Shown here: one piece after another, positions 11,234 to 22,773 of the stretch | Layout of the letters: each line of letters starts with the position of its first letter | Numbering within the stretch: the first letter of the stretch is position 1 | Source: a bacterium | GTDB taxonomy: Bacteria > SZUA-79 > Acidulodesulfobacterales > Acidulodesulfobacteraceae | Reading direction: 5' to 3' | Length of the DNA stretch: 64,000 bases | Assembly: GCA_021777135.1 (NCBI GenBank) | Contig: JAJYDX010000002.1 | Coordinates: 92,084-156,083 of the forward strand | Made by a program: the position numbers and the translations under genes | The notes under the pieces: generated by a model | The model's database searches: none | Told to the model about the DNA's origin: nothing | Seen by the model: only the letters and a program-made list of their open reading frames with translations

Positions 11234-14200
11234 ATGGTAAGCAAAAATACTTCAAAGAAATCTATAATCTATTACCCGCGTCATCAATATATAGCCATTC
11301 AGATATTTTTTATAATTCTGGCGGCACTCGCCATATTTATATTTACGCAAAACACTATAGAAGTAACCAAAGTTACGGACGCAGATTTAAAAAGCAGGGG
11401 GAATTCCGCGGCTAAAACTATAGCAGAAGGCGTTTTTGAACAAATTAATGCGCATTTTCACGATTTAATGTTCTTTCGCTACGCTTTTTTTCGGAAAGAT
11501 TCAAACATTATGATTCCCAAAGGCAAGGCTCTTGAAATATTTAAGAAATTCAAAAGAACGCATCCAAGCATGACTTACTTGAATATTCAAGACGCTAATG
11601 CAAAAAGAATAATATTTTCTACTAAAAATCAACTTTATCCAATAAATAAAAGCCGGGAATTTAAAAATTTAAAAGGTTTTCCAAACAGGCTTATAGGCAA
11701 GCCTGTTTGGATTGATAGTTATAAAACCTGGGTTTTGCCAATGCGCGTAAGAATAACGAATCATGCCGGCAAGGCTATCGGTTTTATCGGTTCATCTTTT
11801 GTTTTGTCTAATCTACGCTCAATTCGGACATTTCCTCTTATTAAAGCCGTAGTCATGAGTGTTCCAGACGGACGTGTAATATCCGCTTGGAAAGACGGAC
11901 GATGGATGCCGCCCAGCACCGGCTTCAAAGCTCCCGCGGGAGAAGTTCTAATGCCTATTTCAGGTCTTCCATGGATTGTGCATGCCGAATGGGATAACGC
12001 AATTTGGAATCAGCTTTTTTGGCAAGCGGAACTCCCACGGTTAATTTTCTTTATCGTATTGCTACTGTTTTTAATTACCGTATATGTTGCCGCAAAATAC
12101 GCTTATAAACGCAACCGCGAGCTAATCGAATATCAGACTGCCATGCTCGATATAAGTCAGCGCATTTTTAGTTTTGACGATCCAGAACTTATTTATCGCA
12201 CTGTAGTCGACACCATTGTAAAAAAGACAAAAGCAATCGCCTCGTATATAATAATTCCTGATGCTAATAGCGAGTGGTTCCGAATTGCCGCAGTTTCTGC
12301 CGACAAGGTAGATTTAGAACAGGCATTATCGCAAATGAAAATTTCTAAAGATCCAAATAATATTCCTTTTGGAGATTTACTGCCTGCTAAATGCTATAGG
12401 GAAAAAAAAGTTATGGGACCGGTTAATACGCAACATCTTAAATCCTTTATCGAAATAAATCAGCAATTTGTTATATTGCGGCGCATTCGTAGCGTTATGG
12501 CGTACCCTATATTTATTTACGGTCAGTCTGACCCAGTTGCAGTTTTGGCTATCCAAAACGATTCGCCAAGGCACTTCACTAAAACGTTACAGACCTTGTT
12601 TTCTCAAATGGTCGTGTTTATAGGCTCTTCAATTAAGCAATCTATTCATCGCAAACAACTTCTTGACAGCGAACAATTTAACGTATCTTTATTTGATTCA
12701 TTAGGAGCTATAGCTTTAGTAATAGACCCTAATGGTCGTATCGTGCGAATCAATTCTCAGGCAGAGGCTTTTATGGGGCATTCCCTTGCTGAGATAAGCG
12801 ATATTCCTTATTTTTGGGAGCGTTTAATTCCTGAGGATGAACGTCCCGATATACACGAAGTATTCGAGGCTATTCATAATAATGCCGTTCCTAAAAAGGT
12901 TGAAAACAATTGGATAAACTTGTCCGGAGAAAAGCGGCTTTTTGAATGGACCAATACCGTAGTTCAAGACAATCAGGGAAATCCACGCTATTTACTTTCG
13001 ATAGGTTTCGATATAACTGAAAGGAAGCGTCTGGAAAACGACCTGCAAAAAAGCTTATTAAAACAAAAAGAGCTAATACAGTTCAATAAACTTTTAGGCG
13101 AGACAAATCAAACAATAGCCCGCATAGAAAATGATAAAGAACTTTTACAGAAATTATGCGATTTAGCTGTCAGGTTTACGCCTATTCGTCTATGCTGGGT
13201 CGGCAAACCTGATTCGGCAGGAGATTTTAAAGTTATAGCCAAAGCGGGGGAGACAGATTATTTAGACGGTTCGCATATTTCCGCTAATCCTGATATTCCA
13301 GAAGGACAGGGACCTGCCGGTCGTTCGTGGCGGGATAAAGTGACGTTTTATAGTAATTCGTATTCTAAAGATGCGCATATGATTCCATGGAAGGAAAGAG
13401 CGGCTCGTTTTGGTCTTTCAGCGAATACTACCATTCCTATTTTCAGAAATGGACAGATATGGGCGGTTATATCTTTTTATTTAGGAGAAGATAAAGAATT
13501 TACGACAGAATTACTAAATTTATTGGATGAGTTGGGACGCGATATTAATTTTGGTCTTGACCACATTGACAATATAGAGCGCGAAAGAAATACTCAAAAG
13601 TTTAACGCAATTTTACTAAACAGCATGGCGGCAGGTATTACCGTGGTCCGCTATCCAGACCGCATTATAGAGAGTATAAATGAGACGGCGCAAAAGATTT
13701 TTAGGGCATCTTCGGAACAGGACTTAGTGGGCCACAAAGCCGTAGAAGTTTTCTCTGACAGTGAAACAGCAGAAAAAATAGGGAATCTTGCTATTGAAAT
13801 CTTATCTAAAGGATACGACTCGATGCGCGATGTTCCATACCGCTGTATGGACGGTTCTATTATCCATATCGATCTTTCCGGTCAAAAAATTCCTGGCAGA
13901 ACGGGAGAACCGGACAGAATTGTATGGACGTTAGTAGACATAGAAGAACGGCACAGGTTAATGGAAGAAATTACACGGCAATCCATAACTGACGTCCTAA
14001 CCGGACTTCCGAACCGCAGAGCATTAGAACAGGAGTTGGAACGCGCGCTTGCAAGAACGCAGCGTAGAAAAAAGATATTAGCTTTATGCATGCTTGATTT
14101 AGACGGCTTTAAACCTGTAAACGATACCTATGGACACGATGCAGGAGACGAGGTTTTGACCGTTATAGGAAAAAGATTGTCAGAATCTATTAGAAGCGCA

Positions 14201-14497
14201 GATTTTGCCTCGCGTCTCGGAGGCGACGAGTTTGTAGTATTAATTGAAGATTTCGATAATATGGATGAGATAAAGGTTATTCTAGAAAGAATCGAGAGTG
14301 CTATTAAAACCCCGATTAATTTAAATAAGTATAACGGGCAAGCGGTATCGGTGGGAGTTAGTATAGGCGTATCCATATATAGCCCTACAGATGAGACGTC
14401 CGATAGGGGCAATAACCTTTTGCGACTTGCGGATCAGGCATTATATAAATCTAAGACCCATAAAATAGATAGGCTAGAATCTTGGGTGTTTTCATAA
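11234..14497 (+). CDS. Membrane multi-sensor diguanylate cyclase (Cache-GAF-PAS-GAF-PAS-GGDEF)
   Basis: A 1087-residue c-di-GMP synthase. TM1 (about 17-42) and TM2 (about 268-291) flank a periplasmic dCache-like sensor. Then come a GAF domain (about 300-475), a PAS (about 480-600), a second GAF (about 615-790), a second PAS (about 795-905) and GGDEF (about 915-1085). The active site GGDEF (996-1000) is intact, and the inhibitory I-site RSAD lies five residues before it, so activity with product inhibition is expected. Arginine is mostly encoded by CGN, unlike neighbouring genes, which prefer AGA/AGG; this suggests transfer. The ATG start has no Shine-Dalgarno and may be coupled to the EAL-HDOD gene. 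Confidence 0.9.
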   Translation: MVSKNTSKKSIIYYPRHQYIAIQIFFIILAALAIFIFTQNTIEVTKVTDADLKSRGNSAAKTIAEGVFEQINAHFHDLMFFRYAFFRKDSNIMIPKGKALEIFKKFKRTHPSMTYLNIQDANAKRIIFSTKNQLYPINKSREFKNLKGFPNRLIGKPVWIDSYKTWVLPMRVRITNHAGKAIGFIGSSFVLSNLRSIRTFPLIKAVVMSVPDGRVISAWKDGRWMPPSTGFKAPAGEVLMPISGLPWIVHAEWDNAIWNQLFWQAELPRLIFFIVLLLFLITVYVAAKYAYKRNRELIEYQTAMLDISQRIFSFDDPELIYRTVVDTIVKKTKAIASYIIIPDANSEWFRIAAVSADKVDLEQALSQMKISKDPNNIPFGDLLPAKCYREKKVMGPVNTQHLKSFIEINQQFVILRRIRSVMAYPIFIYGQSDPVAVLAIQNDSPRHFTKTLQTLFSQMVVFIGSSIKQSIHRKQLLDSEQFNVSLFDSLGAIALVIDPNGRIVRINSQAEAFMGHSLAEISDIPYFWERLIPEDERPDIHEVFEAIHNNAVPKKVENNWINLSGEKRLFEWTNTVVQDNQGNPRYLLSIGFDITERKRLENDLQKSLLKQKELIQFNKLLGETNQTIARIENDKELLQKLCDLAVRFTPIRLCWVGKPDSAGDFKVIAKAGETDYLDGSHISANPDIPEGQGPAGRSWRDKVTFYSNSYSKDAHMIPWKERAARFGLSANTTIPIFRNGQIWAVISFYLGEDKEFTTELLNLLDELGRDINFGLDHIDNIERERNTQKFNAILLNSMAAGITVVRYPDRIIESINETAQKIFRASSEQDLVGHKAVEVFSDSETAEKIGNLAIEILSKGYDSMRDVPYRCMDGSIIHIDLSGQKIPGRTGEPDRIVWTLVDIEERHRLMEEITRQSITDVLTGLPNRRALEQELERALARTQRRKKILALCMLDLDGFKPVNDTYGHDAGDEVLTVIGKRLSESIRSADFASRLGGDEFVVLIEDFDNMDEIKVILERIESAIKTPINLNKYNGQAVSVGVSIGVSIYSPTDETSDRGNNLLRLADQALYKSKTHKIDRLESWVFS

Positions 14498-17175: not shown

Positions 17176-17484
17176 ATGGCTGAGTTTAACGAAGATGACG
17201 TTCTGAAAAAATTAAGAAACATTATAGACCCAGAACTTGAAGTAAATATCGTGGATTTAGGTCTCGTATATAAAATAAATTTAAACGGCAACGGTAACGT
17301 AGCACTTGATATGACCTTGACCGCAAAGGGTTGTCCTATAAGCGGCGTAATAAAATATGAAGTCGAAGAGGCATTGAGAAGTATTCCGGGGGTTAAAAAC
17401 GTAGCTGTAAATTTTGTCTGGGAACCTGAGTGGAACACTTCGATGATAAAGTCGGAAGCGCTTAAAATGCTTAAGACGCATTAA
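17176..17484 (+). CDS. MIP18/DUF59 family iron-sulfur assembly factor
   Basis: A 102-residue protein with the full DUF59 pattern: DPELEVNIVDLGLVY near 15-29, the LTAKGCPIS motif with the family's invariant Cys near 52-60, and a C-terminal VWEPEW block. Relatives (SufT, PaaD, the MIP18 domain) help mature Fe-S clusters. It is preceded by GGAG with 9-base spacing and followed after 53 bases by the polytopic membrane protein. Hemerythrin and DUF2249 genes close by make a role in cluster repair under NO or oxygen stress plausible; that is inference. Confidence 0.88.
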   Translation: MAEFNEDDVLKKLRNIIDPELEVNIVDLGLVYKINLNGNGNVALDMTLTAKGCPISGVIKYEVEEALRSIPGVKNVAVNFVWEPEWNTSMIKSEALKMLKTH

Positions 17485-18800: not shown

Positions 18801-18863
18801 AAAAGGGGTCAGATTTTAAATCTAAAAGGGGTCAGATTTAAAATCTGACCCCTTTTAGATTTA
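18801..18863. repeat. Palindromic GGGGTCAGATTT repeat at a convergent junction
   Basis: A partial unit (AAAAGGGGTCAGATTT, 18801-18816, plus TAAATCT) is followed by a perfect inverted repeat: 18817-18839 is the exact reverse complement of 18841-18863 around a single base. The right arm contains the stop codon of the DUF2249 gene. It lies between two convergent genes and can act as a bidirectional terminator. A second copy of the core is at 23935-23983. Confidence 0.9.
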
Positions 18864-19409
18864 TTTCCAAATCTTGATCGTATAAAGCTCATCTCCATTG
18901 CTTTCAGTTTCTTCAGTCAAAAATTTATATCCAGCGTCTTTTAACCTAGGATATAAATGTATCGGTTTTCTTTCGTGTATTATGTGGAGCGCATCGGATT
19001 CGCCAAAACTTTCTAAGGTGGAAAATATTTTAAGCATTGGTTGCGGCGGTTCTAAGCCCCTTACATCTAGCTCTATGATATTTTGTTTATGAGCCAGATT
19101 TTTTAAGTCCTCGTCGTTAAATCTATTTTCGTCGGCTTCTTCGGAAACCCTGACCGGTTTTACCCCTGTATCGTTTCTAAAAAAAATAATTTCGAACCCC
19201 TCCGGCACTTTGTTGGTAATATGTTCAAATCCTTTATTTTTTAAAACCGAATAAAGCGGAAACGGTTCAAAACTATTTATTAAGTCGAGCGCCTCCCCGT
19301 CTTTTAATTTGTTTACTTCTTCCATAATCTTTTTGAATGGGTCCGCCCCGTTTTTAATATCTTCTCTTACGTCAAGCTTAATTTTTTTTAAATCGTCTAT
19401 ATTTTGCAT
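18861..19409 (-). CDS. Tandem DUF2249 domain protein
   Basis: A 182-residue soluble protein built of two copies of the TusA-like DUF2249 fold: residues about 8-80 (LDVREDIKNGADPFKKIMEE ... FEPFPLYSVLKNKGFEH) and about 110-182 (LDVRGLEPPQPMLKIFSTLE ... HERKPIHLYPRLKDAGYKF). Each copy has the LDVR start and the P-(L/I)-(H/Y)-LYP-like turn. The family co-occurs with hemerythrins and NO-response genes; its biochemistry is undefined. The ATG follows AAAGGAGG. It is the second gene of an operon after the hemerythrin gene (52-base gap), and its stop codon lies inside the palindromic repeat. Confidence 0.85.
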   Translation of the reverse strand: MQNIDDLKKIKLDVREDIKNGADPFKKIMEEVNKLKDGEALDLINSFEPFPLYSVLKNKGFEHITNKVPEGFEIIFFRNDTGVKPVRVSEEADENRFNDEDLKNLAHKQNIIELDVRGLEPPQPMLKIFSTLESFGESDALHIIHERKPIHLYPRLKDAGYKFLTEETESNGDELYTIKIWK

Positions 19410-20035: not shown

Positions 20036-20051
20036 AGTGACAAATGTCACA
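20036..20051. promoter_or_regulatory. CRP/HcpR-type operator in a divergent promoter region
   Basis: AGTGACAAATGTCACA is a palindrome with the GTGA-N6-TCAC core used by CRP, HcpR and related regulators. It lies between hemerythrin (-) and the GGDEF-EAL gene (+). For the plus-strand promoter (TGTTATAAT at 20092-20100) its centre falls near -63, a class I activation position. On the minus strand a TATTAT at 20018-20023 lies close enough that the operator overlaps its -35 region. Confidence 0.6.
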
Positions 20052-20100: not shown

Positions 20101-20157
20101 ATAAAATGTATAAATTATAACTGACAAATTATACGGTAGATTTTTAAATTAAAAAAT

Positions 20158-22773
20158 ATGGCGTTTAAACTTCCGCGTTTTTTTAAAAGACTTGATAAAT
20201 TTATACTCTGCATTGCGGTTTCCACTAGCGTTGCCATAGCGGTTATATCTGCTTACCTGCTTTATAATTTTGCAAATAATATAATAAACACCGGCGTTGT
20301 TACTACAAGTTCGTATATAGCCGATCAGACCTTTAATACCATGTATCAGGTAATGAAAAGGGGATGGAACGAAAAACAGGTAGAAGGGTTTATAGGAGCG
20401 CTTAAAAAATCTTCCAAAAATGAAAATATGGTCGGAGTTTCCATATATAGGGGTGCGATAGTAGATAAGCAGTTCGGCACTGTTCCTCAAACTACGGAAA
20501 ACGGCATAGTTAAAAAAGCTTTCGAAACAAAAAAAGTAATTCATAAAACTTTAAACGGAAAAGAAATCTACGCATATCCGCTGCTCGCAAAAACAATGTG
20601 TCTTAGATGCCATACTATGGCTAAAGCGGGAGATGTCAACGGAGTCATAGAAGTTTCTTTTAATACTGAAAATTTAAATAGTAAATTCAAGGACTATTAT
20701 TTCCTTATTTTATTTCTTATCTTTATTCTGCCGATTTCTGGCGGAGTTTTCGTGACTTTAGTGTTAAGGCGCTCTATAAAGCACGGAATGGAAAGCATAA
20801 ACAAAGAAGTAGAAAATATAAAAACCGTAAAAGATTTAAAATATTTAGATACAAAGCTTATAGACCTTAAGTTCGAAGAATTTAACCAGATTTATCAGGG
20901 AGTAGGCGGACTTTCCGCCAGGCTTAAGGATATAGCCGTGGACAAAGACGTTCTTGAATTCGAAATTAAACTTCTGGAACGGTTTATCATTACGTCTGAA
21001 GTAGTTAAAGACTGGAAAGAGCACGTTTTTAACCTTTTGATAGAAATGAATAATATCATTAAAGTATATAACGTATTTTCTATCTTCGTACATGATGAAA
21101 ATTTAATAGAAATAGAGGTGTTTTGGAAAGGCAGGCCTACCGAAAAGACTAAAAAATTATTCGATAATCTTATTTATAAAAGCATATACCACAACGGTTT
21201 AAATACTTTTTTTATAAAAGGCATAGGAAACCACGAGATATTTCACAACGTAACGGATAAAAATTTAAAACTTCCAGAGCTTTCGGAAGAAGATTTATCC
21301 GTCCAGACGAAAAAGGTAATTCTTGATACGCCTCATATAGGGGGAATAGTAGGCATTGGCATTCAGGCGGAAGAATCCATAGACACCGTCAGGGAACTTG
21401 TTATAAGCAGCGTTTTAACCACCCTCCTGAATGTTATAGGCTCGATAAAAGCTATATATAAATATACTAAAGAGCTTGAATATTACGCTACGAGGGACGG
21501 ACTCACTACCCTGTATAATCAGCGAGTGTTTATGGAATTTTTACATTACGAAGTCGAAAGGTCAAAACGAAATAATATTCCATTCAGCTTAGTCTTTATA
21601 GATTTCGACAATTTTAAGCTGATTAACGATATGTATGGACATAATTTTGGCGACAAGTTTCTCAAGGCGATATCAGACATACTCGAAAAAGAAAAAAGAA
21701 GCGAGGATATTTTAGCGCGTTACGGCGGCGACGAGTTCGTTATGATTCTTCCGGGGGCCAAAGAAGAACAGGCATATATGATTTCTAATAAAATAAGGGA
21801 AAGCATAAAAAAGTTTTCGCTGATAGATACTAATACTCAAAAATCGGTGGGGGCAACTGTTTCTATAGGAATAGCGGTCTATCCTTATTCCGCCGCGGAC
21901 GAAAAAGACCTGTTTTTACTTGCCGACAATATGATGTATAAAGCGAAAAAAAACGGAAAGGATACCGTTTATACGGCAAAGGAAGAGGATGCAATATCAG
22001 TATATAAAGAAGTTTCCGAAAAGAGCAAAATGGTCTTGAACGCCCTTGAACAAGACATAATACTTCCCTATTTTCAGCCTATAATGGATTTAAGCACCGG
22101 AAATATTATCGCGCACGAACTTTTAATGAGGATAAAATTAGACAATATTAAGGGAGACCTTCCAAATGTTATTTCTGCCGGAGAATTTATTGAAATAGCA
22201 GAAAATATAGGCGTTGCCCATAAATTGGATTTATTGCTTCTGGAAAAGGCGTTTATGAAAATTAAGGAAGAAGGCTATAACAGCGATATGTTTATTAATC
22301 TTTCCCCTAAATCTTTAATAGTCACCGACTACGTAAAAACCGTAAAGCGCTTGTCCTTGAAATATAATATAGATACATCCAAAATAGTTTTTGAGCTGAC
22401 AGAGAGAGAAACGGTAAAAAACATCACTCTTTTGGAAAAGTTCGTGGTTAATCTTAAATATGAAGGATTCAGGTTTGCGGTCGACGATTTTGGGTCGGGT
22501 TTTAGTTCTTTCTTATATATTAAGAGATTCCCCATAGATTTTCTTAAGATAGACGGCGAATTCATAAGGGGGATTTTTGACGATAAAATGGATAGGGCTG
22601 TAGTAGTAAGCTCAATTTCTATTGCAAAAGAAATGGGAATTAAGACTATAGCCGAATTTATAGAGTCAGACGAAGTTTTAGTAGAATTGAAAAAGTTGAA
22701 TGTGGATTACGCCCAAGGTTTTTTCATAGGAATACCCTCGCAAGATTTCTCCAAAAAAAGCATCGTTAAGTAG
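20158..22773 (+). CDS. Heme c-type sensor GGDEF-EAL c-di-GMP enzyme
   Basis: An 871-residue membrane protein. TM1 (about 15-37) and TM2 (about 181-204) enclose a periplasmic domain that contains CLRCH (148-152), the motif for covalent c-type heme; the layout resembles DUF3365/Tll0287-like heme sensors. A GAF-like region (about 255-440) leads to GGDEF (about 450-610). The active site GGDEF (523-527) and the I-site RSED five residues earlier are intact. The EAL domain (about 630-865) keeps ELLMR (Glu654), NLSPK, FELTE, VDDFGSGFSS, LKID, AEFIE and AQG, so both synthesis and hydrolysis of c-di-GMP are possible. A redox, O2 or NO signal read by heme is the likely input; that is inference. Confidence 0.88.
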   Translation: MAFKLPRFFKRLDKFILCIAVSTSVAIAVISAYLLYNFANNIINTGVVTTSSYIADQTFNTMYQVMKRGWNEKQVEGFIGALKKSSKNENMVGVSIYRGAIVDKQFGTVPQTTENGIVKKAFETKKVIHKTLNGKEIYAYPLLAKTMCLRCHTMAKAGDVNGVIEVSFNTENLNSKFKDYYFLILFLIFILPISGGVFVTLVLRRSIKHGMESINKEVENIKTVKDLKYLDTKLIDLKFEEFNQIYQGVGGLSARLKDIAVDKDVLEFEIKLLERFIITSEVVKDWKEHVFNLLIEMNNIIKVYNVFSIFVHDENLIEIEVFWKGRPTEKTKKLFDNLIYKSIYHNGLNTFFIKGIGNHEIFHNVTDKNLKLPELSEEDLSVQTKKVILDTPHIGGIVGIGIQAEESIDTVRELVISSVLTTLLNVIGSIKAIYKYTKELEYYATRDGLTTLYNQRVFMEFLHYEVERSKRNNIPFSLVFIDFDNFKLINDMYGHNFGDKFLKAISDILEKEKRSEDILARYGGDEFVMILPGAKEEQAYMISNKIRESIKKFSLIDTNTQKSVGATVSIGIAVYPYSAADEKDLFLLADNMMYKAKKNGKDTVYTAKEEDAISVYKEVSEKSKMVLNALEQDIILPYFQPIMDLSTGNIIAHELLMRIKLDNIKGDLPNVISAGEFIEIAENIGVAHKLDLLLLEKAFMKIKEEGYNSDMFINLSPKSLIVTDYVKTVKRLSLKYNIDTSKIVFELTERETVKNITLLEKFVVNLKYEGFRFAVDDFGSGFSSFLYIKRFPIDFLKIDGEFIRGIFDDKMDRAVVVSSISIAKEMGIKTIAEFIESDEVLVELKKLNVDYAQGFFIGIPSQDFSKKSIVK

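Follow-up and report, generated by a model that had tools for sequence, protein, structure and literature searches.

The window analysed here is a 64,000-nucleotide stretch of contig JAJYDX010000002.1 (assembly GCA_021777135.1, positions 92,084 to 156,083) from a bacterium of the Acidulodesulfobacteraceae, whose genome comprises 2.12 Mb in 92 contigs with a completeness of 100%. The close relatives are metagenome-assembled genomes (MAGs), one of which is named Candidatus Acididesulfobacter diazotrophicus; the genus is spelled Acidulidesulfobacter in the taxonomy, and the phylum is Candidatus Acidulodesulfobacteriota. Members of the order are facultatively anaerobic sulfate reducers from acid mine drainage (PMC6776010). 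The gene under study encodes an 871-residue membrane protein, a well-supported one-component inner-membrane sensor, in which a periplasmic domain with a predicted c-type heme motif is joined to cytoplasmic GGDEF and EAL domains, the output domains for synthesis and hydrolysis of cyclic di-GMP (c-di-GMP). It diverges from a hemerythrin-domain gene, as the initial annotation had stated (Table 1).

Table 1. Features of the sensor locus, in window positions.
Feature	Position	Strand	Basis
Fe-S assembly (DUF59) protein	17176..17484	+	PF01883, E 2e-21
Multi-transmembrane (multi-TM) protein, COX1-like at low score	17538..18785	+	PF00115 in 4 of 9 orthologs, best E 0.0027
DUF2249 / TusA-like protein	18861..19409	-	Pfam
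Hemerythrin-domain protein, 164 aa	19462..19956	-	PF01814, E 2e-20
Palindrome GTGACAAATGTCAC with Crp/Fnr-like half-sites, divergent promoter	20037..20050		Conserved between species
Predicted heme-c sensor-GGDEF-EAL membrane protein, 871 aa, ATG start	20158..22773	+	Open reading frame and Pfam; orthologs in genus and family
TM helix 1, about residues 15-35	20200..20262	+	Hydropathy; long helix in predicted model
Periplasmic sensor domain, about residues 38-178, sCache_heme-type fold (predicted)	20269..20691	+	AlphaFold, Foldseek, profile comparisons
Met66, candidate distal heme ligand	20353..20355	+	Invariant in 26 aligned sensors; aligned with 3b42 Met60
CLRCH, residues 148-152, predicted c-type heme attachment; His152 expected proximal ligand	20599..20613	+	Invariance
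TM helix 2, about residues 181-203	20698..20766	+	Hydropathy
Cytoplasmic linker region, residues 206-436	20773..21465	+	GAF-like by inspection only
GGDEF domain, residues 444-602, I-site RxxD 514-517	21487..21963	+	PF00990, E 2e-44
EAL domain, residues 625-858, catalytic residues intact	22030..22731	+	PF00563, E 2e-54

The sensor domain is flanked by two hydrophobic segments whose cytoplasmic ends are positively charged, and CLRCH lies in the periplasmic part between them, where the initial annotation had placed it. The reverse strand opposite the gene is closed by many stops, and an antisense open reading frame of 131 residues (20149-20544) is without support. Conservation was scored in 18 orthologs from the genus and family, a set that includes the window protein and spans 58-100% identity over the first 448 residues. 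The I-site (R514-x-x-D517) and the GGDEF motif (523-527) are invariant in all 18, as are E654, L656, R658, N714, E746, E749, D776, D777, K797, E833 and Q853 on the EAL side; this residue conservation bears out the earlier statement that both active sites and the I-site are intact. In the linker, about 40% of the columns are invariant in orthologs, and a Pfam search of this region returned no match. Paralogs of 772 residues in two sister genomes (L051:1633-3948 and L052:6902-9217), 48% identical, keep the linker, GGDEF and EAL regions and are without the heme domain, few residues joining their two TM helices. The window encodes a second GGDEF protein about 6 kb upstream (11234-14497), 1087 residues long with PAS and GAF domains.

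CLRCH is invariant in the 18 orthologs and its CxxCH pattern in 26 of 26 aligned sensors, whereas over the sensor domain (38-178) the orthologs agree at only 27% of positions. A CxxCH is expected by chance in the periplasmic part at about 3e-5, and the entire protein contains only three cysteines (18, 148 and 151), two of them inside the motif. C148, C151, H152, M62 and M66 are kept in all 18 orthologs, and the 26-sequence alignment has 11 invariant positions: M66, G69, W70, V102, G107, P141, C148, C151, H152, A155 and G158. A155 and G158 are not fixed in further Campylobacterales proteins; CxxCH and Met66 are invariant across phyla, including relatives from alphaproteobacteria and Campylobacterales. 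The cytochrome c maturation genes that a c-type heme requires are present in the genome as a system II: a CcsB-like protein (TIGR03144, 232 bits, cut-off 187.6) and ResB (192.6 bits) are encoded by adjacent genes that lie some 6-8 kb upstream of the window (C71:84348-86512). The initial annotation had named two checks that could refute it, on the predicted fold and on the presence of maturation genes, and both came out in its favour. Heme c is very probably bound covalently on the periplasmic side of the inner membrane. As the heme in the window protein is predicted, the cysteines could also form a thiol pair, making a disulfide or holding a metal, as in CSS-type redox phosphodiesterases, where PdeC-type proteins use a periplasmic cysteine pair (PMC8846402). 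This is most improbable, however: His152 is as invariant as both cysteines, Met66 is conserved, the maturation genes are present, and the fold and motif position match heme-c structures.

Direct Pfam and NCBIfam searches gave no model above cut-off for the sensor domain. PF11845 (sCache_heme, DUF3365 or Tll0287-like) scores 13.7 bits for the window protein against a cut-off of 24.1, and the protein is therefore placed only in the wider sCache_heme superfamily, not in the Pfam family as modelled. Nearly all proteins of its branch also fall under this cut-off, one homolog passing it at 24.2 bits, and in the own genome PF11845 matched nothing but chance-like fragments interrupted by stops. Compared profile to profile with PF11845 members above the cut-off, the sensor reached a probability of 98.2% (E 4.8e-14) over 49 columns around beta-3, CxxCH and beta-4, a match partly driven by the motif; with the in-genome paralogs and those of methyl-accepting chemotaxis protein type it reached 99.5% over 180 columns. 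The AlphaFold model of residues 36-184 (26 sequences) has a pLDDT of 81.8, about 88-94 in the CxxCH region, and a pTM of 0.78. The predicted order is helix, helix, beta-1, helix, helix, beta-2, beta-3, a short helix with CxxCH, and beta-4 (in model numbering, strands 93-97 and 100-108, helix 111-115, CxxCH 113-117, strand 125-134). Foldseek with the trimmed model retrieved from the PDB the heme sensor GSU0935 first (E 9e-5, probability 1.00), together with GSU0582 (0.99) and Tll0287 (0.99, TM-score 0.54), in agreement with the heme-domain fold initially suggested; the matches also include Cache domains that carry no heme, WalK and TlpB for example. An earlier model that included the TM helices was of mediocre confidence and ranked heme sensors only third, fifth and sixth. 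Superposition of GSU0935 on the predicted sensor gives a large root-mean-square deviation of 12 Å, likely because GSU0935 crystallised as a domain-swapped dimer (PMC8396549).

A candidate for the second axial ligand emerged from the same structure. A PDB profile search from close orthologs alone found nothing, and distant homologs had to be added; the best match, 3b42 (GSU0935), is weak (E 0.057) and aligns Met66 with chain position 26. Chain His110 is GSU0935 His144, an offset of 34, and position 26 is therefore Met60, the distal heme ligand of GSU0935 (PMC8396549). This positional coincidence is strong support, not proof, for ligation by Met66, which we regard as the likely distal ligand.

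The signal is suggested by the promoter and by published biochemistry of relatives. The palindrome GTGACAAATGTCAC is identical in several species and changes symmetrically to GTGAT-N4-ATCAC in others, a second genus included, where two small genes lie between it and the sensor gene. Its half-sites are comparable to Crp/Fnr-family boxes such as that of HcpR, TTGACnnnnGTCAA (PMC1274295). The own genome carries near-copies, GTGACAAAAGTCAT and ATGATTTTTGTCAC (L150:1441-1454 and 1501-1514; G000:C54:186401-186474), between RIC/ScdA, an Fe-S repair protein (TIGR03652, 200.5 bits, just under the cut-off of 204.7), and a divergent apparent operon for a cytochrome c and a quinol nitric oxide (NO) reductase. 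The reductase was identified through PDB and Pfam (3ayf, E 3e-175; PF22085), an NCBIfam search of the protein giving no match. A third copy, of the first near-copy form, is located downstream of a thioredoxin-reductase-like gene (by inspection only) at C54:331313; for GTGACAAANGTCAY, 0.026 copies are expected per genome and 3 are seen. These sites might belong to an NO regulon of the phylum, possibly controlled by one Crp/Fnr-type factor. Beside RIC and the reductase operon lies a gene for an Rrf2-family regulator, NsrR/IscR-like (L150:216-635). A scan of the window for FNR boxes found fewer sites than chance and was dropped.

The neighbouring genes fit this setting in part. The trio of sensor, hemerythrin and DUF2249 genes, mostly accompanied by the DUF59 and multi-TM genes, is conserved in two genera. 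The hemerythrin-domain protein has weak similarity to the RIC/YtfE Fe-S repair model TIGR03652 (46.7 bits, below cut-off), DUF2249 proteins are up under denitrifying conditions in a haloarchaeon (PMC11218638), and the multi-TM protein gave no identification beyond its weak COX1 match. Neighbourhood alone was rejected as proof of NO sensing, since one genus clade and the Campylobacterales have different neighbours. NO is the best candidate signal because the palindrome is shared with NO genes and because a signalling-type sCache_heme relative shows tight binding of NO and no stable complex with O2; by this context and biochemistry, NO as the main signal is somewhat to be favoured.

Several observations weigh against this reading, beginning with the sub-threshold PF11845 score. 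The palindrome pattern was defined after inspecting the alignment, and palindromes with up to one mismatch number 8 against 7 in the reversed control, with no enrichment. In the genus clade without the hemerythrin pair (L045, L046, L063, L064 and L071), the sensor gene lies amid other genes, and no palindrome was found upstream of it in the three loci tested; the palindrome might act on the hemerythrin gene instead of the sensor gene. The Campylobacterales loci have other neighbours, with no obvious NO genes adjoining the sensor. Finally, a His/Met heme with a strictly conserved Met66 fits a redox sensor, in which heme c would swap electrons with periplasmic cytochromes or iron, and redox-linked binding and release of Met66 would set c-di-GMP with no gas ligand. 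GSU0935, the best fold match, is high-spin when oxidised and low-spin with Met60 ligation when reduced, and has been proposed to sense redox potential (PMC8396549); the order inhabits acid drainage rich in iron and sulfur, under both oxic and anoxic conditions (PMC6776010). Redox sensing is a serious rival to NO sensing, although it leaves aside the palindrome common to the sensor promoter and the NO-detoxification genes, the hemerythrin and DUF2249 neighbours retained in two genera and the NO binding of the signalling-type relative, and we consider it unlikely overall. Oxygen, or reactive oxygen, could likewise be the signal, the sensor then steering the cell in a gradient of oxygen. In Desulfovibrio, the heme-c chemoreceptor DcrA has been reported to respond to oxygen and redox (PMC8396549); cydAB is present in members of the order, which are presumed to use O2 (PMC6776010); and one Campylobacterales ortholog adjoins a rubrerythrin-like gene (by inspection). 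The sCache_heme proteins that have been tested, however, autoxidise and form no stable oxy complex, which renders an oxygen sensor improbable. Near the sensor gene in L045 and L046, a hemB-like gene (heme synthesis, by inspection; L045:1805-2785, L046:6386-7366) is found in place of the hemerythrin pair, together with a dut-like gene.

For the favoured NO sensor, the following mechanism can be proposed. A single heme c would be bound to the periplasmic Cache domain by Cys148 and Cys151, its iron coordinated by His152 on the proximal side and probably by Met66 on the distal side. On the ferrous heme, Met66 would be displaced by a diatomic molecule, for which NO is the likeliest candidate; the N-terminal helix would then move, and TM1, TM2 and the linker in the cytoplasm would relay this movement to the two output domains, shifting the balance between c-di-GMP synthesis and hydrolysis. 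NO is commonly reported to promote release from biofilm; that it favours the EAL side and biofilm release here is a guess of low confidence. Taken as a whole, the proposal of an NO-reading heme-c one-component c-di-GMP switch seems to us somewhat more probable than its alternatives combined.

The sensor belongs to a kind already known, that of the heme-c Cache sensors, as a sound but distant member. The sCache_heme family was described in 2026, also fused to GGDEF and EAL outputs (preprint PMC12889525), and the window protein shares with it the CxxCH, conserved in all 26 sensors aligned here, and this fusion; like the NO-sensing signalling-type (Cluster 2) members, it is fused to TM helices and a signalling output. 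The initial annotation had called a heme-c sensor for c-di-GMP uncommon, which is half right: the architecture occurs in several phyla and the sensor family has now been described (PMC12889525). GSU0935 and GSU0582 (3b42 and 3b47) carry CxxCH in the same place as the window protein, whereas their output is chemotaxis signalling and their sequence similarity is very weak. These two sensors probably belong to PF21563; the Geobacter structures reportedly date from 2008 and that of Tll0287 from 2017. H-NOX, DosP and globin-coupled sensors also connect a heme input, of type b, for NO or O2 to c-di-GMP turnover, and a 2022 census of c-di-GMP inputs includes H-NOX among the NO sensors whose heme is not covalently bound (PMC8846402). 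The genome of the window protein also encodes a 277-residue CxxCH sensor that ends after a HAMP-like region (L035:2157-2990, contig C54), a layout like that of the P. azotoformans protein tested in PMC12889525, and a GGDEF-only protein with a related CxxCH sensor (L036:4297-6312, contig C76). In H-NOX, DosP and the globin-coupled sensors, the heme is non-covalent and on the cytoplasmic side, in folds unrelated to heme-c Cache domains. Near a multiheme cytochrome lies a histidine kinase whose periplasmic domain contains two CxxCH motifs, possibly a diheme sensor (L043:4305-6284).

When 84,980 species genomes were scanned, further heme-sensor-GGDEF-EAL proteins came to light in Magnetospirillum moscoviense and in MAGs labelled Methylocystaceae, as well as Campylobacterales members that are GGDEF-EAL or PAS-containing. 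Among 99 relatives of Magnetospirillum, 22 have profile matches; among 99 relatives of a Helicobacteraceae MAG, 8 encode full-length homologs that share the linker, one of them (L137) with an internal stop. The full-length Campylobacterales homologs share the architecture, linker included, at 44-47% identity over about 840 residues with all key residues; their gene neighbours differ, and no characterised member was found. A wider joint reading, more tentative than that for the single protein and somewhat doubtful, is that a Met-ligated heme-c Cache branch, spanning acid-mine sulfate reducers, alphaproteobacteria and Campylobacterales and missed by current domain models, directly converts periplasmic NO into a c-di-GMP response and in this phylum is expressed together with NO-detoxification genes under one Crp/Fnr-type regulator.

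As far as the literature shows, the Pfam-missed branch, the conservation of Met at this position, the distribution of the branch and a possible NO regulon are new. The branch extends the sCache_heme family beyond the Pfam model, and Met66 and the promoter site at 20037-20050 offer concrete points for test. For the organism, a covalent heme facing the periplasm would register NO from outside ahead of its entry into the cell.
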